A stretch of DNA of 64,000 nucleotides from a virus, in the IMG/VR virus record IMGVR_UViG_3300049489_000842, positions 1 to 64,000 of that record, one strand, 5' to 3'. A program made the translations under genes and the position numbers. Of the stretch, positions 3,001-30,155 are shown piece by piece; position 1 is the stretch's first letter; each line of letters starts with the position of its first letter. The notes under the pieces are model-generated. The model had not been told where the DNA came from, did no database searches, and was given only the letters and a program-made list of their open reading frames with translations.

Positions 3001-4336
3001 TTGTTGAGTATGTAGAGTTTGCTTCATCCCAAAACATAGAACCGATTGGTTCTAAACCAGTTGGAGAGTATGAGTTGTTAAATGTTATGCCAGTGAATAT
3101 AGGAATTCCATTAATTACTGATTGTGGAGTAGTTTGATCAAGGTGTAATGATAGCGGATCTGTTTCAGTAATTGTTACCACTGTAGCATTATTGCCAGCA
3201 TTATCCGTGGCCGCAACAGCGGCTCCTACAAAGTTTAAATTTCCTCTTGCTGTTAGCGGTGTTCCTTCATTTTGTATAGTATGTCCTCCAGATAAAGGGT
3301 TTCCGTTTATAGTTATTGTATCTCCTACTATTTCTACTCCTGTATTTGATGTCTTTACATAATTAGAAGTACTGCCTTTAACTTTATAAAATACAGGATT
3401 GTATCCTGTAAAAGCTTTTATATCGAATCCTGATCCTACTACAGTACTGCTTATACTTCCTGCAGTCTGATTAGTGTAGTATAAATTTAAATCTTGTTTA
3501 GTGGCTGGAGATACAGTTCCAGTACCTCTATATATTACTATACTATATTTCTTCCCGGCCTCTAATACAAGAGGCGATGACAACACAGCATACTTTACTT
3601 CTGTATTAGCAGTTCCTATAATACCAGTCTGTCTAAAGTAAGGAGTGTTTAATAAAGGAGTATTTAAAGCGCCTAAAATTTCCCCATCAGTAAATTCTCT
3701 ATCAAAGACATCAATAACTATATCACTTACATTATTTAATGCAGAAGCTCTAAAATAAATACCTATAGAATCGATAATAGAATACTGATTATTTAAAAAA
3801 GTAGCTGAATGATAGGTTTTGGTTCCTGAAACTGTTTGTGGAGGCAGTGTATCTGGTATATCAGATAAAGTCTCTATTTTGTAATCCGTATTTTGTATAT
3901 GTAACTCAGAAAGATCCGGCTTATTCAGTATTTCAGCCCATCCTGTTACAGCATTCCAATCTGATTTTACATTTTGTAAAACTGCTAATGATGTAAATGT
4001 TGTATCTCCTAAAACATCAAAAGTTGCAACAGATTCTGGATATCCTACATGTTTAGATTGTATCCAACTTAAATTTGATAATAGGGCATGGTCTGATACT
4101 CCATCACTCCCAACTTCTTTCCAATTCAAATTATTTAGTAAACCAGAATCATAAGATTGGTAATTCAGATAATACTTTTTCATCTCGGATACAACAGATA
4201 CCTCCATCATAGGGTATCTCTCCACTAACGGAATAACATTCCTTTCTGCTATATCTAATGCTAAGATTTTAGCATCTACAGGTCTTTGAGAAGACAGATG
4301 AAAATTAGACGATAACCTTATATCTCCGATAGGCAT
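1..4336 (-). CDS. Large tail fibre/appendage protein with pyocin-knob-like repeats (3' end beyond window)
   Basis: The frame is open from an ATG at 4336 down to base 1, at least 1,445 codons, so the C-terminus is missing. The N-terminus begins MPIGDIRLSSNFHLSSQRPV. A unit containing SDHALLSN followed by a Trp-Ile occurs twice (near 4,080-4,115 and 1,030-1,070). A stretch with AKGLVTAG (near 860-890), typical of phage tail fibres, precedes two adjacent copies (about 436-645 and 197-408) of a 70-residue unit with G-x-Y near its start, then NGSTLYHxxW and SQMYHEIVNNR. This resembles the pyocin-knob fold of fibre and tailspike proteins. It is the last gene of the leftward virion operon inside the window and probably contributes to host recognition. 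The role is inferred; the fibre-type repeats are visible. Confidence 0.8.
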   Translation of the reverse strand, partial: MPIGDIRLSSNFHLSSQRPVDAKILALDIAERNVIPLVERYPMMEVSVVSEMKKYYLNYQSYDSGLLNNLNWKEVGSDGVSDHALLSNLSWIQSKHVGYPESVATFDVLGDTTFTSLAVLQNVKSDWNAVTGWAEILNKPDLSELHIQNTDYKIETLSDIPDTLPPQTVSGTKTYHSATFLNNQYSIIDSIGIYFRASALNNVSDIVIDVFDREFTDGEILGALNTPLLNTPYFRQTGIIGTANTEVKYAVLSSPLVLEAGKKYSIVIYRGTGTVSPATKQDLNLYYTNQTAGSISSTVVGSGFDIKAFTGYNPVFYKVKGSTSNYVKTSNTGVEIVGDTITINGNPLSGGHTIQNEGTPLTARGNLNFVGAAVAATDNAGNNATVVTITETDPLSLHLDQTTPQSVINGIPIFTGITFNNSYSPTGLEPIGSMFWDEANSTYSTRLKNGVTLQNGQELHIYGKNTSGQPIVNGQPVAIDSVGGQFTAFTTVDITTPAAYAYVGLATQDIAINGFGYVTIQGVVRDINTNAYDEGKPVYVGLDGLLTKVFPTVPNYIINVGIVEYKHGTNGRINIVSAIVPKLQDLSDVNGTPLNADGLIPVWNNTNKFFDFTENITNYAKLNTDVSFDSVYTNDLESSDVERAFDAKMGTGIPSEEKKKFKLTTSYATGNLTASIEFVGGYTSFSYYINNRKFIVTAANIAAYTQTAAASEGLYFFYINQTTVDENAPAMALTKTPWVINDPDVLLWNMYFEATGNTVAWVGNEKHTFGRDIYNHARNHAQGAVYQSGFIVSAYNGISSTLLASNTDNSPARAILQVSGGYFFDEDIKNGIAHSDLSITSTTATPDTDWDKFVYQFLGFTNLAAVGTNATTIVFPSSRTLITGQSITVMNGNTQTLRGYATVVTGGTGTTFTITSVTGATIGDAIVVGGRIPIYYISSAAGGNYIWRRLTTTDFLGVSGGAAITPSTIAAAVCQFNNTTAGGFTNMTANRYFPMYLLATNFTSEPVIAILGQGQSSNSTLTTALGEAPFQFNNLVGLNKLELQEVVPFYRLTFHYNTTGAFTTAKFKLVNTTFIDVRVSTSSGAILATGGASDHALLSNREWITANHTSNQASIRLASFDAAGAPTYTDPLDFVAANVAITGATKTKITYDAKGLVTAGADATTADIADSTNKRYVTDAEKTAITHSNRTALDAVSGTNTGDETKATIEAKLTGAITSHTHDYDKYAQGLYIGDVNTITITGVYRIGAGATNYPVTASLNGSTLYHNNWDSTAASQMYHEIVNNRLWIRHKTTSTWSEWTPIITVITITTDLDAITVSGIYKVSAGATNYPVGATVNGSTLYHHQWTSNAKSQMYHEIVNNRFYIRYMSSGVWGSWVQLAKLDGATFTGAISASNLSGTNTGDQSTFSTIAVSGQSNVVADSATDTLTLVAGTNITITTDASTD

Positions 4337-6064: not shown

Positions 6065-6640
6065 TTAATATTTAACAACATAAACACCGCCAATAATCCA
6101 ACATCCAGATCCTTCTCCACAAGGAGATACATCTATATTTAAAAAGTCATCTCCAGAGTTTTCTACTACAGCCTCAACCTTATCCCATGCTCCTAGAGCC
6201 TGTTCTGTTTGACCGGCAGTAACATAGGTAATAGCTGCTTTAATGTATAAATGAAGCATGAATAGCTCATTCATTTTCTTTTCATCATCAAGGGCAAGTG
6301 TTTTATTTGCCAAGCAAATCATAGCGTAGTACGCATTTATTAATGTCTTTCCAGTAATAAAGTCTGGTCCTTCATCTGTTTCTACAACTATTGTAAATGG
6401 GCCATCAAACACATCTTTATTGTATACAGCTGCTATTTCTGGAGTGTTAACAGAAAACTGGTATTCATAAGAAGGATTAGATGGTTGAATGTAGGCATCT
6501 AAAATAACCGGGTTTTCATTCAAGTAAGCGTCCCCTATGTAAAGGTATAACTTAGTAATTTGGTTGGCTACAGGTACTGTAATTTTTGCGTACATTGTAG
6601 TAAAATCTGCTGATAGGTAATATTCTTCTATTATAGTCAT
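6065..6640 (-). CDS. Hypothetical virion protein
   Basis: The product has 191 residues. The first ~100 look like a beta-sandwich (alternating hydrophobic strands such as MYAKITVPV and KLYLYIG). A helical segment follows (about 105-165), and the tail holds two cysteines (SPCGEGSGCW). It lies between a strong upstream terminator and the appendage genes, so it probably opens a separate leftward transcription unit; TATCTTTA-like hexamers lie in the 94 bp upstream. I do not recognise the family. Its position suggests a tail or neck component. Confidence 0.65.
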   Translation of the reverse strand: MTIIEEYYLSADFTTMYAKITVPVANQITKLYLYIGDAYLNENPVILDAYIQPSNPSYEYQFSVNTPEIAAVYNKDVFDGPFTIVVETDEGPDFITGKTLINAYYAMICLANKTLALDDEKKMNELFMLHLYIKAAITYVTAGQTEQALGAWDKVEAVVENSGDDFLNIDVSPCGEGSGCWIIGGVYVVKY

Positions 6641-20666: not shown

Positions 20667-21239
20667 TTAAAATTTATCTGGGTACACAATTTTAGCGTGC
20701 CACACATCACTATGTACCTTCCTTACCTTCAAATCTCCTTGCCATACAATAAAAGGATTCAACTCTATACTCCCTCTGGATCCTAAAATTAATCCATTCT
20801 TCTTTAATTTCTTAAGTATAACAGACAAGTACCCTTTAGTGAGTCCAAGATAATCTAAAATATAAGCTCTTCTATCACTATCAAAAGTAATTGTACTTTT
20901 GTTATACTCCATAAATTTAACCAGTATAAAAAATACTTTAAACTCTGTAGCTGTATCCAGATACTTTAACAAAGATACAGAATCAATATCTAGAAATACA
21001 AACCTACTATTAATAGTATCCTGATTTGGTTCCTCTATAGACTCTTTACTCCTTTTAACGTCTCTTTCCCTTCCTTTAAGGAAAGCCACATATTTCTTTT
21101 TATCCTTATCAGATAATTCCTGATACCATTCCAGATTCTGTACAGAACTCTCGGTATCCGACTCACCGGAAACAACCATCCCAGTGACTACATCAATCAC
21201 AGCATCCTTATAAAAAATATACCCACTCTCCTTTTCCAT
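20667..21239 (-). CDS. RepL-like winged-helix protein
   Basis: The 190-residue protein has a divergent N-terminus and a C-terminal winged helix (about 95-175): TEFKVFFILVKFMEY, DYLGLTKGYLSVILKKLKK as the recognition region, and the wing GSIELNPFIVWQGD. The last motif matches the asparagine-proline-phenylalanine...G-D ending of RepL-type plasmid initiators and related regulators. It is the second gene left of a control region with repeated dyads, so it is a good candidate to bind them, either as initiator or as repressor. The binding link is an inference. Confidence 0.65.
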   Translation of the reverse strand: MEKESGYIFYKDAVIDVVTGMVVSGESDTESSVQNLEWYQELSDKDKKKYVAFLKGRERDVKRSKESIEEPNQDTINSRFVFLDIDSVSLLKYLDTATEFKVFFILVKFMEYNKSTITFDSDRRAYILDYLGLTKGYLSVILKKLKKNGLILGSRGSIELNPFIVWQGDLKVRKVHSDVWHAKIVYPDKF

Positions 21240-21240
21240 A

Positions 21241-21507
21241 CTAATTATAGTAAGTTACCTTTAACCCAAACCATAGAAACATCAATTGTTTGTGTCTCAA
21301 GGTAAGATATACACTCAATCCTCCATCAGGATTTATCTGCCTATTCCTGACTGCCCAATAAGTACTATAATAAAACCCAAACAATTTAAAAATAAAAGGT
21401 AAAAACAAATGCCTTATATCAGATGGACTTCTATGGTAGAAAAACCCATTTGTATATTCGAAGATTTTTACCTTCTTAAACCTATCCTCAAACTCTTGTG
21501 ATACCAT
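21241..21507 (-). CDS. Small hydrophobic hypothetical protein
   Basis: The 88-residue protein is rich in Phe and Tyr. A hydrophobic stretch LFLPFIFKLFGFYYSTYW (34-51) and a second LMFLWFGLKVTYY near the end could associate with membrane. It is the first gene of the leftward operon, 78 bp from a TATATTTG promoter-like element. Its stop lies directly against the next gene. No family is recognised. First-gene position and small size resemble early phage genes aimed at host functions. Confidence 0.55.
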   Translation of the reverse strand: MVSQEFEDRFKKVKIFEYTNGFFYHRSPSDIRHLFLPFIFKLFGFYYSTYWAVRNRQINPDGGLSVYLTLRHKQLMFLWFGLKVTYYN

Positions 21508-21585
21508 ATCTTCAGTTATTATTATTAGTAACGTAATACATCTAAATTTCTAACGTGGTCATACGCCTCCGTTATGTTTTCTGTA

Positions 21586-21593
21586 CAAATATA
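21586..21593 (-). promoter_or_regulatory. Leftward promoter -7 element (TATATTTG)
   Basis: The minus strand reads TATATTTG, a full match to the Bacteroidota -7 consensus, 78 bp upstream of the leftward operon's first ATG. The dyad copy at 21601-21617 lies 7 bp upstream of it, in the spacer/-33 region, so a bound protein could block this promoter. Confidence 0.6.
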
Positions 21594-21600
21594 CGAAAAG

Positions 21601-21820
21601 TTATTCTAATAGAGTAATTCGACCCTCATTTTATTCTCCCAGAATAACAAAAAATGTATGAGGTGTGTATGGGTTTTATTCTCCCAGAATAACTTTTCCT
21701 TTCCTTAAAATAAAAAGATGGAGTTCCATACGTGTTAACCGAGTATGGGTTTTTAAGAGTTATTCTCCCAGAGTACCTGAGTTATTCTGGTAGAGTACTT
21801 GAGTTATTCTCCCAGACACA
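21601..21820. repeat. Six dyad repeats TTATTCT-nnn-AGAATAA (operator or iteron array)
   Basis: Copies start at 21601, 21631, 21676, 21760, 21782 and 21804. The copies at 21631 and 21676 are perfect 17-bp palindromes with a CCC centre. Those at 21601, 21760 and 21782 have one or two changes in the right arm, and that at 21804 has a decayed right arm. The last three are spaced 22 bp apart, about two helical turns. GTATGGGTTTT is repeated just before the third and fourth copies. Candidates are operators for a dimeric repressor or iterons for an initiator such as the nearby RepL-like protein. Confidence 0.75.
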
Positions 21821-22251
21821 TAACGGCCATTTCAAACCCAGTCGTATCAAGGGAAACACATATCTTATCTTTAATAAGGAGATTTTTTCTTTCTTTTTCC
21901 GGGGGAGGAAAGGTAGGGAGAGAGAGGTAGGGTAGGTAGGTAAGATACTACTCCCCCACCACATATTTTTTATGGCCCAGTCCTTTCACATAGAAAGGCA
22001 TAGGGGTACTTACTTACATCCCCCCCCCTAAACCAGTTGTGTATTAGAGTTCCATTTCTATCCCGAAGGGGGCACCCCTTCGGGTACTCGACATCTGGGT
22101 ATCCCCCGGCATTGAACCTCGTGGTTCCTATTGCTGTTTGGGTATGCTTCAAATGTTACGAAGAGACAACTTCGTTCCCACCTTGAGGAGAACCAAATTC
22201 GCGAAACCCGAAAAGCGTAAGAGTAGGGACATCAAATACAGAGATACTATG
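21821..22251. promoter_or_regulatory. Divergent control region: polypurine tract and hairpin leader
   Basis: No convincing gene is present. A G/A-rich tract (about 21885-21942, GGGGGAGGAAAGGTAGGG at its core) is followed by a run of nine C (22020-22028). Three hairpins then lie before the 160-aa gene: CCCGAAGGGG/CCCCTTCGGG (about 22063-22085, 3-nt loop), GAACC/GGTTC (about 22114-22127) and ACGAAG/CTTCGT (about 22158-22175). The strand switch, dyads, polypurine tract and leader hairpins together suggest an origin and/or a regulated early leader. No exact TAnnTTTG element was found for the rightward direction. Confidence 0.5.
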
Positions 22252-22734
22252 GAAAATACTTCTAAATCCATGACGCTTCAAGTTCGTTCAATTGGTTACA
22301 GTGCTAAACGTAATCGTATAGTTTTCAATTTCTCTAACCCTGAAACAGCTGGTTTAGCACATGGCGTGCCAGCAGAATGGTTCGGTAAGAAACTTGCCAA
22401 CTTCGGAATGTTTGACATTACCGCTGCGCATTTAGAGTTGTTAGTGGAATTGAACGGTGTAACCGCGCATTGTAATGGTGTATCTATCATACCAGCAGGT
22501 TCGATGCTGGAAGGTAGGGACGAACCTACAAAGCAGGACAATCTGGACGTGGTTGACTTTGACTTCCAAGTCAAAGTGTTACCAAAGCTTCAGATTAAAA
22601 AGGAACTTACTCCGGAAGTGCTTAAAGGAATGCCTGTACTGTTTAAATCTTCTGTAACCGAAGCCGAAAAGGCTGAGGTTGCTAAACCAACAGTTGCAAC
22701 TATTGCAGCAGGAATATCTGAAGACGAGGAGTAA
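22252..22734 (+). CDS. Hypothetical early protein
   Basis: The product has 160 residues from the ATG at 22252 (MENTSKSMTLQVRSIGY). In-frame upstream starts at 22138-22153 would place coding sequence across leader hairpins, so they are less likely. The body is a predicted mixed alpha/beta domain (NRIVFNFSNPETAGLAHGVP, MFDITAAHLELLVELNG). The tail is Ala/Glu-rich and acidic (ISEDEE). The DNA looks richer in GC than the replication genes. It is the first rightward gene and ends at a hairpin. Function unknown; an early, abundant DNA- or RNA-binding role is possible. Confidence 0.65.
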   Translation, partial: ENTSKSMTLQVRSIGYSAKRNRIVFNFSNPETAGLAHGVPAEWFGKKLANFGMFDITAAHLELLVELNGVTAHCNGVSIIPAGSMLEGRDEPTKQDNLDVVDFDFQVKVLPKLQIKKELTPEVLKGMPVLFKSSVTEAEKAEVAKPTVATIAAGISEDEE

Positions 22735-22788
22735 TCCTCTCTTCAGGACCCTTCGGGAGGCCTTGTGCCTTCCGAGGGGATTCCTTTT
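22733..22788 (+). terminator. Hairpin terminator candidate after the first rightward gene
   Basis: CCCTTCGGGAGGC (22749-22761) pairs with GCCTTCCGAGGG (22767-22778) across a 5-nt loop, with AATCC/GGATT extending the base, then CCTTTT. The T run is short, so partial termination or transcript processing is equally possible. Confidence 0.5.
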
Positions 22789-22800
22789 CAAATGTATACC

Positions 22801-23470
22801 TTAGGGGGCTGGAAGTGAGTGATAGCAAGGGCTGTAGCCTTCGCTAACAATCAACTCACTTCTAGCTCCCTTAATCATAACATAGTCCTAACGAAGACTA
22901 AACTTACCTACTCTCTGGTTTACAGAGGGTTGAGGGAGTTATAGCATGACTCGTTAGGACTTTCCTCTCCTTATCCTACAGAGAGAAACACTTGCTTATA
23001 GCTTTAGGCGTAGATGCAAGGTGAGTAGCACATTGAGGCTACAGTAGGGTTATGTGGCTATTTATAGCTACATTGGCAATTGTCTAAAAGGGGGATTCTC
23101 CTTTTAGATAATATACCTTGATAGAAACAAGCAGTAAAAAGATAGTACATACTGCAGGTTACAGTTCCTTCGGGGATAGTCGGTGTTGTCCGATGAAAGG
23201 TGATAACACCTGTAGCTGCTTGTTTCTTTACTAATGCACCACAACTCACTTCCCAAGGGTGAGCAGTTGTAATACCTGAAAAGGTAACAATAAAAAGGAA
23301 AGTAGGAAAAGTATAAGGCAATACCATTACAAGAGTATGTAAGAACCTTGTTGAAGTATCTTTCTTATTACAACTGAGTGCAGAGGGGTATAGAAAGCAG
23401 AGCACTCCTCGCTATAACGAGGTCGTACAGCCAGGTTTCAGTCTGGCCGGGGAGTGTTGCTTTCTTTTTT
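22801..23470 (+). ncRNA. Large structured non-coding RNA candidate (about 670 nt)
   Basis: No plausible ORF fills this stretch, but it is packed with long complementary arms. 22803-22820 pairs with 22854-22873 (18 bp including G-T pairs). 22884-22894 pairs with 22951-22961 (11 bp, perfect). 23080-23091 pairs with 23100-23111 (12 bp with one G-T). 23124-23134 pairs with 23216-23226 (11 bp, perfect, enclosing smaller hairpins). Near 23233-23262 ACAACTCAC faces GTGAG-C-AGTTGT. The end is a three-way junction, AGAAAGCA/TGCTTTCT plus CACTCC/GGAGTG enclosing two hairpins, followed by TTTCTTTTTT, like an intrinsic terminator. Size and complexity recall the large phage RNAs GOLLD and ROOL, but no signature of either was recognised. 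Confidence 0.6.
23392..23470 (+). terminator. Three-way-junction terminator-like element
   Basis: AGAAAGCA (23392-23399) and CACTCC (23403-23408) pair with GGAGTG (23451-23456) and TGCTTTCT (23458-23465). Inside are CTCG/CGAG and GCCAG/CTGGC hairpins. A run TTTCTTTTTT follows directly. It could end the structured RNA upstream or, being junction-like, act as a regulated attenuator. Confidence 0.5.
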
Positions 23471-23544
23471 AAATTGTAAACTCTTAAAAACACTATATGC
23501 GTAAAAGGATTAAGAACAATGTGAAGGCTCAGTTAGTGGCCTCT

Positions 23545-23690
23545 ACTGTAGTTGGAAAGGAATATTACCTTTCCAAACTAAGAAATTTCAAGGAAGCTAT
23601 ACTTCCTGAGAAAACACGTGCCCATAAATTGGGCATGAATATATCTGGGTTAAAAAACTACGACGAGAGTCGTAGTGTAGGCCCAGGTAC
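23545..23690 (+). ncRNA. Array of perfect hairpins overlapping a 66-codon ORF
   Basis: Four perfect hairpins follow one another: TTGGAAAGG/CCTTTCCAA (23552-23576), AGGAAG/CTTCCT (23591-23607), TGCCCA/TGGGCA (23619-23635), and ACTACGAC/GTCGTAGT (23657-23676), the last nested in CTGGG/CCCAG (23645-23686). An ORF of 66 codons (23497-23697, start MRKRIKNNVKAQ) spans them, but its sequence looks dictated by the inverted repeats. I favour an RNA, possibly a continuation of the upstream one, over a protein gene. Confidence 0.55.
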
Positions 23691-23697
23691 ATTATGA

Positions 23698-23832
23698 TTT
23701 AGAGTTTCCAAACCAGAGATAGTATCAAAGGGGAGGAAACTTATTACTTGCAGGTTTAACCTGTATGGCCACAGAGAACTCGAAAGGGTTGGTGCGAACA
23801 CTGATGCTTATGCATTAAGAAGAAACTCTAAA
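23698..23832 (+). ncRNA. Structured RNA domain closed by an 11-bp stem
   Basis: TTTAGAGTTTC (23698-23708) pairs perfectly with GAAACTCTAAA (23822-23832), enclosing 113 nt with smaller hairpins such as CAGGTTTAACCTG (about 23743-23755) and TGCTTATGCA. It ends 9 bp before the ATG of a 41-codon membrane-protein ORF. It could therefore be a separate ncRNA or a structured 5' leader. Confidence 0.5.
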
Positions 23833-23841
23833 AATATAAAA

Positions 23842-23967
23842 ATGAAAAAAGCAGTAAAACAAGAAGAAGCTGGTGCTTTGGCACTTGCAATGTTTTTAAT
23901 AACATCGTTTGTGACGGTGTTATTAATAATGGCTTTCACATTTGGGAGTAATCCCATAGGTGTTTAG
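23842..23967 (+). CDS. Small single-pass membrane protein (41 aa)
   Basis: This short ORF begins MKKAVKQEEAGALALAMFLI and continues with a hydrophobic helix (about 11-34) ending in TFGSNPIGV. The Lys-rich N-terminus would stay in the cytoplasm. It begins just after an 11-bp stem and is followed by another folded segment and a strong terminator. Small membrane proteins among early phage genes often affect superinfection or host physiology, but nothing specific is visible. Confidence 0.5.
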   Translation: MKKAVKQEEAGALALAMFLITSFVTVLLIMAFTFGSNPIGV

Positions 23968-24100
23968 ACTGATAAAACCAACAACCTGAAGCCGAATGGG
24001 GATAAGGGTGGTTGGTTAAGATAAAAACCGGATGCTAGTTATAACTGGACTTTTAGTAGAGTTTTTGTTATTGCCAACAGAGTTTTACCGGTTCTCAATT
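23968..24100 (+). ncRNA. Structured segment between the 41-aa gene and a terminator
   Basis: AACCAAC (23976-23982) pairs with GTTGGTT (24011-24017). AACCGG (24026-24031) pairs with CCGGTT (24088-24093), enclosing an AGTTATAACT hairpin. No ORF is present. It runs directly into the terminator at 24101, so it could be a 3' UTR-derived small RNA. Confidence 0.45.
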
Positions 24101-24137
24101 GAGGGGAGTCTACTTAGGTAGGCTCCTCTCTTTTTTC
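24101..24137 (+). terminator. Strong intrinsic terminator
   Basis: GAGGGGAG-CTAC pairs with GTAG-CTCCTCTC across a 4-nt loop, followed by TTTTTT. It ends the transcript that carries the early gene(s) and structured RNAs upstream. Confidence 0.85.
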
Positions 24138-24155
24138 TATTTTAATTTAAACAAA

Positions 24156-24227
24156 TCCCCCTTAATCCTTACCAACGATTTTTGGTAGTGACATAAATGT
24201 CGTGACCAAATGTGAGGATAAGGGGGG
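24156..24227 (+). promoter_or_regulatory. Structured 5' leader of the paralogous membrane-anchored gene pair
   Basis: CCCCCTTAATCCT (24157-24169) faces AGGATAAGGGGG (24215-24226), enclosing TACCAA/TTGGTA (24170-24187). The structure lies 31 bp before the ATG at 24259 and could control the following four-gene operon. No known riboswitch signature was recognised. Confidence 0.4.
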
Positions 24228-24258
24228 AAATTACTAACAGCTAAAACAATAATAAAAG

Positions 24259-26663: not shown

Positions 26664-26873
26664 ATGAAAGTAACAGTTAAACATTGTTTTACAGGAGAAT
26701 TTAACTCTTTAGAATTGGATATAACCCCAGAACAAGCAGAAAGAATCCTCAAAAATGAGGAAAAATTACAAGATATAGTTCCTCACTTATCTGCTGATGA
26801 AAGAGAATTTCTTATAACAGGAATGCTGCCTGGCGAGTTTGATGCTTTATTAGATTGTTCTGACGAATACTGA
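26664..26873 (+). CDS. Hypothetical small acidic protein
   Basis: The product has 69 residues from the ATG at 26664 (MKVTVKHCFTGEF). An upstream in-frame GTG at 26640 lies on the terminal hairpin of the RNA and is not favoured. The protein has one strand pair, then helices (ITPEQAERILKNEEKLQDI, LSADEREFLITGM) and an acidic end. It begins the polycistron that leads into the replication genes. No family is recognised. Confidence 0.55.
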   Translation: MKVTVKHCFTGEFNSLELDITPEQAERILKNEEKLQDIVPHLSADEREFLITGMLPGEFDALLDCSDEY

Positions 26874-27908: not shown

Positions 27909-29594
27909 ATGCTTACAATGGTATTGAGCAAAACGGGAGGGAAACTAGGAAAGTACCTCCCTTTTGTTACTGATGATTTCCAAAAGTTTAAAGACTGGAT
28001 TGATCCTATTACTGGGTATATAGCTCATGATTTAGAAACAACCATGACTAAATCAGTACTTGATAGACAAATGCTCTTATCTGCTTACTATTATGATGAT
28101 GTAGCATGGGTTGTATTTATTGAAGAGCTAACACCAGAAGAGCTTGCAGAACTGTGTGTAATAATGAGTAATAAGAAACTTATTATACAGGCATCCAAGT
28201 TCGAATATGGTATGTGGAGAAAGTATGGAGTGTTTTTAGAGAAATATCATGATATATACCTACAGGATAAACTCCTGTATATGGGTATAGATGGAGAGAA
28301 GTTTGATTTATCGAGTATTCTTCATAGATATCTTGGTAAGACTCTAGATAAAACACTACAAACAAGCTTTACAGCTTGTTCTGAGGTAACAGATGATCAG
28401 CTTGAGTATGCTGTGGCAGATATAGTAGACTTACCTTTAATTATGGAGCTTCAGCTAGAGAAAATAGCTCTTCATGATAAGAAGTTTAAGTTCTTTATCC
28501 AGAAAACTGCCCATAAAAACAGAGGATTGCAGAAAGCATCATGGTGGACGCATGAGTTCAGTAAAGTACTGAATGATATGCAGTATACCGGCGTAAACTT
28601 TAATCCTATTAAATGGGAGGAGTTGTATCATAAATCATTTCCAATTGTTGAGGCAGCTACAAAAAAGCTCAATGATATATTGGTAAGGGATTTCAAATTA
28701 CAGTTAGCCGGAGAAGGCATGTATTTACTCAAGGATACTCCTGTAGATAAGCTATTTTCTTCTCCTGATAAAAAGCTAAAACTTCTTAATATTATGTTCC
28801 CCCTTTTAACTAAAACTTCGAATTATGAAGTTACTCAGTATTTAAAAGAACATGATCCTTCATTTGTTAAAGGTAAAGCTTACCTAAATACCTATGAAAA
28901 GAACAATTTTTCTATACTCAAATTGAGTATCGCGGGGAATGTTAAGGTTTTAGAGTCGTTTTTTGTAGAAAACTTTCGAGATGAGATGGTAAAAAGGGAA
29001 TTGTTGTTACCAGCCGGAACATTGCTGGTAAACTGGGCAAGTCCTATTCAAAGAAAGACTATCTTTCAATGGATACATCCCCAATTAGAAAGTACAGATA
29101 AAGAACATATAGCTGAAATAGCTTGGAAACATGAGTTATTGCAGGTGTATTCAGAAGAATATTCCAATGCAAATAATCGCATAACTAAGTTTGGATTAAA
29201 GTATCTTGAGCATATAGATTTAGATGGAAGAATAAGAACTAACATAGATCCTGTTTTAAACACAGGAAGGATATCTTCTTCTAAACCGAATGTATTAAAT
29301 ATCATCAACGATGCTGAATACCGTTCTGCTTTTATCTGTAGTCCTGGATTTAAAATGCTTGGATGTGATTATAAAGGACAGGAGCTAGTCATTACAGCTC
29401 ATGTATCTGGCGAGCAGCAATGGATTAAAGCTATAAGGGAGGATAAGGACTTGCATTCCATCAATGCAAGAAACACATTCTCAAGCTGGAATTCCCATAC
29501 TCTTAAAGATTGTACTTTTTCTATTGATGAGAAGAAGTGTAAGTGTCCAGGGCATAATATCCTGAGGGGAAATGCTAAGACTGTTGTATTCGGT
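27909..29594 (+). CDS. polA: DNA polymerase family A, exon 1 (residues 1-562)
   Basis: The N-terminal 3'-5' exonuclease domain has the first metal motif in AHDLETTMTKS (about 38-48) and the YAVADIVDLPL motif (about 169-179). The thumb/fingers region carries GRISSSKPNVLNIIND. Motif A is MLGCDYKGQELVITAH with the catalytic Asp. The exon ends inside motif B after AKTVVFG, where the group I intron begins; without splicing the frame stops four codons into the intron. Joined to exon 2 it gives a polymerase of about 730 residues. There is no 5'-3' exonuclease domain; that activity is encoded separately at 41052. Confidence 0.9.
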
Positions 29595-30155
29595 AAACAA
29601 TCACTATAAATATGAAAAATGCCGAATTAAAAGACTGTAAATTCAGGGAAACCTTAACGCATAATGGCGATGGCAATCCTGAGCCAAGCCCAGAAAATAG
29701 GGAAGGTGCAGAGACTATAATCAGACTATGTGTGTTGTGTGGAGAACATATTTCTTTGGTGAGATCTAAACAAGCTAAATACTGCAGTAATGTATGTAAG
29801 CTTAAAATGAATAGAATTAAACGTGTTTTACTTAATGGAGGAAAGCCTGGTGTAGGTTCCGGAGGAAATCAATTTGGTGAAAAGAATAGCCAATGGATAA
29901 ACGGAAAGATTGCATTCAGGAGAATCGGAAGAGAAGCCCACGGAGAGGTTTGTAATAGATGTAAATCTACTTCTTATCTGGTAGTTCATCATATAAATGA
30001 AAATAGAGATGATAACAGAAAAGAAAACCTCGAAGTCTTATGTAAAGCATGTCACCAAAATCATCACGCAATCAGAGATGCCTTAACAGGAAGATATATC
30101 TCTAAAAATACATAAAGGGATAGTCCACTCCGGTATGAAAATATTGGGTAAAGTG
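29595..30155 (+). other. Group I intron in the DNA polymerase gene (561 bp)
   Basis: The exon end TTCGGT (29589-29594) pairs with an internal guide GCCGAA at 29621-29626, giving a P1 helix with the required U-G at the splice site. Core elements are visible: P (AATTCAGGGAAACC, about 29640), Q (AATCCTGAGCC, about 29675, with CCTGA pairing to TCAGG as P4), R (AGAGACTA, about 29710) and S (GATAGTCC, 30119-30126, with TAGTC pairing to GACTA as P7). The intron ends in G at 30155, and joining 29594 to 30156 restores VFG-IIYGITKYG of polymerase motif B. Confidence 0.92.
29612..30115 (+). CDS. Intron-encoded HNH homing endonuclease
   Basis: The 167-residue ORF lies wholly in the intron and ends where the P7 3' strand begins. 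It has a treble-clef-like zinc motif CVLCGEHISL...KYCSNVCKLKM (about 38-68) and an HNH core CNRCKSTSYLVVHHINENRDDN...NLEVLCKACHQNHH (about 121-160). The first ~35 codons overlap the P, Q and R elements, so a later start is possible. Such enzymes cut intronless alleles and spread the intron. Confidence 0.88.
   Translation: MKNAELKDCKFRETLTHNGDGNPEPSPENREGAETIIRLCVLCGEHISLVRSKQAKYCSNVCKLKMNRIKRVLLNGGKPGVGSGGNQFGEKNSQWINGKIAFRRIGREAHGEVCNRCKSTSYLVVHHINENRDDNRKENLEVLCKACHQNHHAIRDALTGRYISKNT

Follow-up and report, generated by a model that had tools for sequence, protein, structure and literature searches.

A directional repeat array at the strand switch of a crAss-like phage: a candidate iteron-type protein-binding site

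Genes and elements around the strand switch

The window analysed here comprises bases 1–64,000 of a viral record that is 88,518 bases in full. Its terminase and portal proteins matched the crAss-like families phrog_6681 and phrog_6547. Compared with crAss001 terL, the window terminase is a homologue with 38% identity, and the gene order HU-like, GroES-like, terL is common to the window and crAss001. Judged by its crAss-type terminase, portal and gene order, the phage is a crAss-like phage (Crassvirales).

The positions of the open reading frames (ORFs) confirmed a strand switch between 21507 and 22249. The leftward operon, which contains the structural genes and is late, begins at 21507 with an ORF of 88 aa (P0002; 21241–21507, minus strand). 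In the rightward replication operon, the first plausible gene starts at 22249 and encodes a protein of 161 aa (P0003; 22249–22734, plus strand). Neither product matched any family. The rightward operon also encodes PolA, an AAA ATPase, a DnaB-like helicase and another helicase, which counts in favour of the replication origin proposed below. Homology between P0003 and the counterpart gene in the relatives described below was not significant, and the candidate designation of P0003 as ‘ssb-like’, for which there was no support, was dropped.

The interval between the two operons contains the repeat array and, to its right, several further elements. A G-rich polypurine tract lies on the plus strand at 21899–21941, between the array and the rightward operon, with 82% purine in 21900–21949; the equivalent gap of one relative (L009) contains a polypyrimidine tract. 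A CTATCCC element that is common to the relatives is found together with a hairpin, CCCGAAGGGGGCACCCCTTCGGG, at 22059–22085 (plus strand). In the leader of the first rightward gene, positions 22198–22229 (plus strand) resemble the DUF805b cis-regulatory RNA element (RF02914) with a score of 35.1 bits, 0.5 bit below the Rfam gathering score of 35.6; no comparable match was obtained in L009, L011 or L012. The kilobase to the right of the array, 22001–23000, is the most GC-rich of the record (45% compared with ~35%).

The leftward operon also encodes P0001 (190 aa; 20667–21239, minus strand), which the first-pass annotation had called a RepL-like winged-helix protein. We found support for the fold and for a family resemblance, but P0001 itself had no match to Pfam RepL (PF05732). 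A model built from the relatives' proteins alone detected P0001 with an E-value of 1.6e-4, and a profile comparison gave 9.5e-5. By these comparisons, P0001 is a true, though divergent, member of a small winged-helix family in this clade. One of its relatives, P0009, aligned with Pfam RepL over positions 37–122 (E 0.007), with 16.2 bits against a cut-off of 20.3. A direct tblastn search with P0001 retrieved no relatives; these were reached via the terminase and alignments.

In the AlphaFold2 model of P0001, whose confidence is low overall (mean pLDDT 59), helices and a wing were predicted at residues 97–166, with local pLDDT mostly 67–89 up to residue 160. The model matched winged-helix structures weakly and has the features of a winged-helix fold. 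Its PDB matches were generic winged-helix regulators, and its best viral matches included annotated replication initiators with modest E-values. Taken together, a winged-helix fold and a rough affinity to RepL are supported for P0001. Two repL copies are known in p-crAssphage (PMC10136315). P0001 resembles the RepL proteins of crAss-like phages and Firmicute plasmids in its fold and through the profile match of P0009, but differs from them in that this match is below the cut-off, that P0001 has none, and that it is encoded in the leftward operon.

Structure of the repeat array

The heptamer TTATTCT occurs six times without mismatch on the plus strand, at 21601, 21631, 21676, 21760, 21782 and 21804. 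The intervals between successive copies are irregular (30, 45, 84, 22 and 22 bp), the last three copies forming a head-to-tail series spaced by exactly 22 bp. The repeat core is TTATTCTCCCAGA, and a core of 13 bp is kept across the irregularly spaced copies. Repeat 1 (TTATTCT-AAT-AGAGTAA; 21601–21617) is followed by two copies of the perfect dyad TTATTCT-CCC-AGAATAA, repeat 2 at 21631–21647 and repeat 3 at 21676–21692. Repeats 4 to 6 are the head-to-tail 22-bp units GAGTTATTCTCCCAGAGTACCT (21757–21778), GAGTTATTCTGGTAGAGTACTT (21779–21800) and GAGTTATTCTCCCAGACACATA (21801–21822), the last of which has lost its right arm. All six lie on the plus strand.

The array had been described at first as six dyads within 220 bp. 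Six sites, three of them 22 bp apart, are indeed present, but only those at 21631 and 21676 are perfect dyads. The left arm is invariant in all six copies, and mismatches are confined to the right arm (one at 21601, two each at 21760 and 21782, and three at 21804), which reads AGAATAA twice, AGAGTAC twice, and AGAGTAA and AGACACA once each. In the whole window, dyads with up to three mismatches were not unusual (22 observed vs 18.1 expected). The repeats are therefore better described as directional units of ~22 bp with a partly palindromic core than as six symmetric operators. Direct repeats of ~17–25 bp in the same orientation, as in iterons, were found (six copies, three of them with a 22-bp period), whereas the symmetric half-sites that a palindromic operator would have in every copy were confined to two of the six.

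Six TTATTCT heptamers on one strand in 220 bp represent the maximum in the window for any 7-mer within 235 bp, all others reaching four at most. The corresponding maxima were 3–4 in 15 shuffles of the whole window and never exceeded 4 in 1000 local shuffles. A weight matrix built on the six units scored them at 23.9–33.2, values inflated by their derivation from the same six sites, while the best site beyond the array scored 12.9. Furthermore, searching the full 88,518-bp record for the pattern gave no additional copies. The absence of the repeats elsewhere in the 88.5 kb points to a local site rather than a genome-wide operator.

Repeat 1 is located just upstream of TATATTTG, a −7-like box at 21586–21593 on the minus strand that reads into the leftward operon. 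The first-pass annotation had reported a consensus promoter beside one copy. The box and its neighbouring dyad were confirmed, but the TTTG expected at −33 is missing. The 8-mer TATATTTG occurs five times on the minus strand, and its looser form TANNTTTG occurs 91 times in the window. Given the missing −33 TTTG and these frequencies, the promoter call is weak, and TATATTTG is a plausible candidate promoter.

This arrangement bears on whether the array might be an operator only, at which a phage regulator, possibly P0001, would bind palindromic sites and toggle between the two operons without taking part in replication. The position between divergent operons, the perfect dyads of copies 2 and 3, and the abutment of copy 1 on the leftward TATATTTG are all consistent with such a switch, as is the resemblance of P0001 to generic winged-helix regulators (MarR, ArsR, CRP) no less than to Rep proteins. 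In addition, the authors of the crAss001 report proposed that the DNA-binding proteins heading each half control transcription of both halves (PMC6235969). On the other hand, the repeats have a direction and poor dyads make up four of the six, the promoter lacks the −33 box and has a common −7 word, and a rightward promoter beside copies 4–6 was not found. We regard an operator-only function as the main alternative, to be taken seriously although probably not correct.

The perfect dyads also resemble a different kind of promoter. The early promoters of phage N4 are hairpins with a 3-nt loop (PMC4496689), and crAss-like phages possess a giant virion RNA polymerase (PMC7886860), both of which would fit hairpin promoters of the N4 style, with a stem of 5–7 bp and a 3-nt loop extruded as a cruciform. 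In copies 2 and 3, the stem measures 7 bp and the loop 3 nt (DNA fold −3.0 kcal/mol, z ~ −5). However, copies 1, 4, 5 and 6 folded no better than shuffles, so that four of the six form no hairpin, and the RNA polymerases belong to different families. Since a stable 3-nt-loop hairpin was restricted to copies 2 and 3, N4-type promoters were rejected on folding, and we consider them the least probable explanation of the array.

Counterpart arrays in related phages

The three closest usable contigs (L009, L011 and L012) encode terminases 64–66% identical to that of the window. The window's repeat sequence was present in no relative examined, and the paired repeat had no match in viral or genomic contig collections. 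A single 17-mer gave five scattered single matches and no clusters in these collections, which is consistent with chance. Absence of the dyads from close relatives, which the first-pass annotation had set against its own proposal, is thus literally true of the sequence, although the corresponding place contains another array. L009 has an array at 6431–6506 and L011 has one at 2514–2584, both with a 23-bp period, and L012 has two distinct arrays in one gap, at 3448–3656 (~25 bp) and 3831–3892 (19 bp). All of these are tandem arrays unrelated in sequence to that of the window. In a scan for 14-mer clusters, the array ranked first in the window and in both L011 and L012; in L009 it tied with one other cluster.

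The places were taken as equivalent on the basis of the flanking leftward operon, a rightward gene at 26664–26873 that is matched in L011 and L012, and the CTATCCC element. Homology between the genes that follow the array in the window and in the relatives was not demonstrable. From these comparisons, the place and architecture of the array appear to be kept among the relatives, while its sequence is not. Non-functional local duplications that turn over by slippage would agree with the lack of conservation of the repeat sequence. Against this, the 13-bp core is kept despite the irregular distances, and four genomes have an array in the corresponding interval; we judge such an origin of the repeats to be decidedly improbable.

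In L009, L011 and L012, the arrays lie just downstream of a winged-helix gene (P0004–P0006, the fold being assigned from a predicted model of P0005) and upstream of the next rightward gene. This family was not detectable in the genome of the present phage, and its homology to P0001 was not significant. The relatives do have a P0001 homologue, yet their arrays adjoin the different winged-helix gene, and P0001 as the binder of the array is therefore unsupported.

The arrays of L011 and L012 differ from that of the window in two further respects. They have no dyad excess, which argues against both palindromic operators and N4-type hairpins. They are also located 1.5 to 3.5 kb inside the rightward block and off the strand switch itself; this position is not between promoters, as an operator function would imply, and it likewise counts against an origin at the switch. 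More distant relatives, including the slightly more distant L016 and L109, showed no comparable array, which again speaks against the origin reading.

Evidence for and against a replication origin

Over the whole record, cumulative GC skew is lowest at 22,340, in agreement with the skew inversion that had been anticipated here. However, skew tracks gene direction throughout, and we therefore set the raw skew aside, as it does not constitute independent evidence. We then used a strand-corrected scan of 4-fold degenerate sites in which gene strand was fitted. The optimum lay at 22.5 kb for the origin and at 69 kb for the opposite switch, and not one of 60 block permutations did as well. An origin at 39 kb or 6 kb, however, gave an almost equally good fit, and strand-corrected signals of similar size were obtained in five control crAss-like phages, often away from their own strand switch. 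Because the control phages give similar signals elsewhere, the 22.5-kb signal was downgraded, and skew is not decisive for an origin at the array. An AT-rich unwinding element was not found at the array, where AT content is 60–72% compared with ~65% in the genome, and this too weighs against an origin. The AT maximum near the array is 78%, in 21500–21549, overlapping a gene start.

Arrays of repeats act as packaging or partition sites in other phages and plasmids. Direct terminal repeats are reported for crAss001 (PMC6235969), which would favour a packaging site of the pac or cos-like type. The array is, however, 4.4 kb from terL, the two ends of the record lie elsewhere and do not overlap, and neither parA nor parB was recognised among the genes scanned. 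A packaging or partition site is accordingly very unlikely.

The first-pass annotation had left open whether the array at the divergent switch consists of operators or iterons. Either fits the location, but the iteron alternative is better supported by the six same-facing copies, the invariant left arm, the decaying right arm and the 19–25 bp tandem arrays of the relatives. We therefore favour, with about an even chance of being right, an iteron-type protein-binding array that lies at or near the origin of phage replication or belongs to it, and consider this likelier than a pure operator. A phage-encoded DNA-binding protein would bind cooperatively to the six same-facing repeats, and the bound array would mark, or form part of, an origin between the late leftward and the rightward replication operons. 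As the outermost copy adjoins the leftward TATATTTG, the same occupancy could also reduce the activity of the leftward promoter. What we infer in this proposal is that a protein binds, which protein this is, that the site serves as an origin and that the promoter is affected. The absence from this genome of the winged-helix gene that adjoins the relatives' arrays stands against it.

Known plasmid iterons are 17–22 bp long and are bound by winged-helix Rep proteins (PMC4980987). The array resembles those of the iteron theta plasmids R6K, pPS10, P1, F and RK2 (PMC4980987) in having several same-facing noncoding repeats of ~22 bp, with winged-helix proteins encoded nearby (P0001 here and P0004–P0006 in the relatives). 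It is unlike them in that no AT-rich element was detected, the spacing is irregular, the element belongs to a phage and the binder is putative. With crAss001, the phage shares opposed gene halves, an inverted GC skew at the switch and DNA-binding proteins starting each half, whereas a repeat array at the switch is not mentioned in the available portion of that report (PMC6235969).

The comparison with the relatives raises a further, rather unlikely idea. The origin of this lineage might be an iteron array whose sequence is replaced in every lineage at a fixed place, with the adjacent winged-helix initiator exchanged or lost, that is, by rapid co-turnover. If the repeat sequence and initiator do turn over jointly, these phages would provide a natural system for studying initiator–site co-evolution. 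If the array is an operator only, it would reflect ordinary phage regulation. In either case, a compact candidate site between the gene halves, with a counterpart in relatives, offers a concrete segment for origin and footprinting work. As far as the literature searched shows, the replication start of crAss-like phages has so far been inferred only via GC skew or Ori-Finder, the latter having been used to predict the origin of a zeta crAss-like phage (PMC12386605). None of the papers searched, which did not include subscription papers and preprints, mentioned crAss-like phages and iterons together, and this absence is therefore weak evidence of novelty.

Two features were also observed farther into the rightward block. 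The region 22740–24235 (plus strand, ~1.5 kb) has few convincing ORFs, and large RNA hairpins of very high predicted stability follow one another along it. Folding of six of these gave z values of −3.1 to −7.1. There was no convincing Rfam match, and the region could encode several structured phage RNAs. At 27909–30115 (plus strand), the PolA-like ORF (566 aa) stops within the polymerase domain and is directly followed by an HNH-endonuclease-like ORF. This arrangement suggests that a mobile intron or endonuclease may interrupt the polymerase gene.
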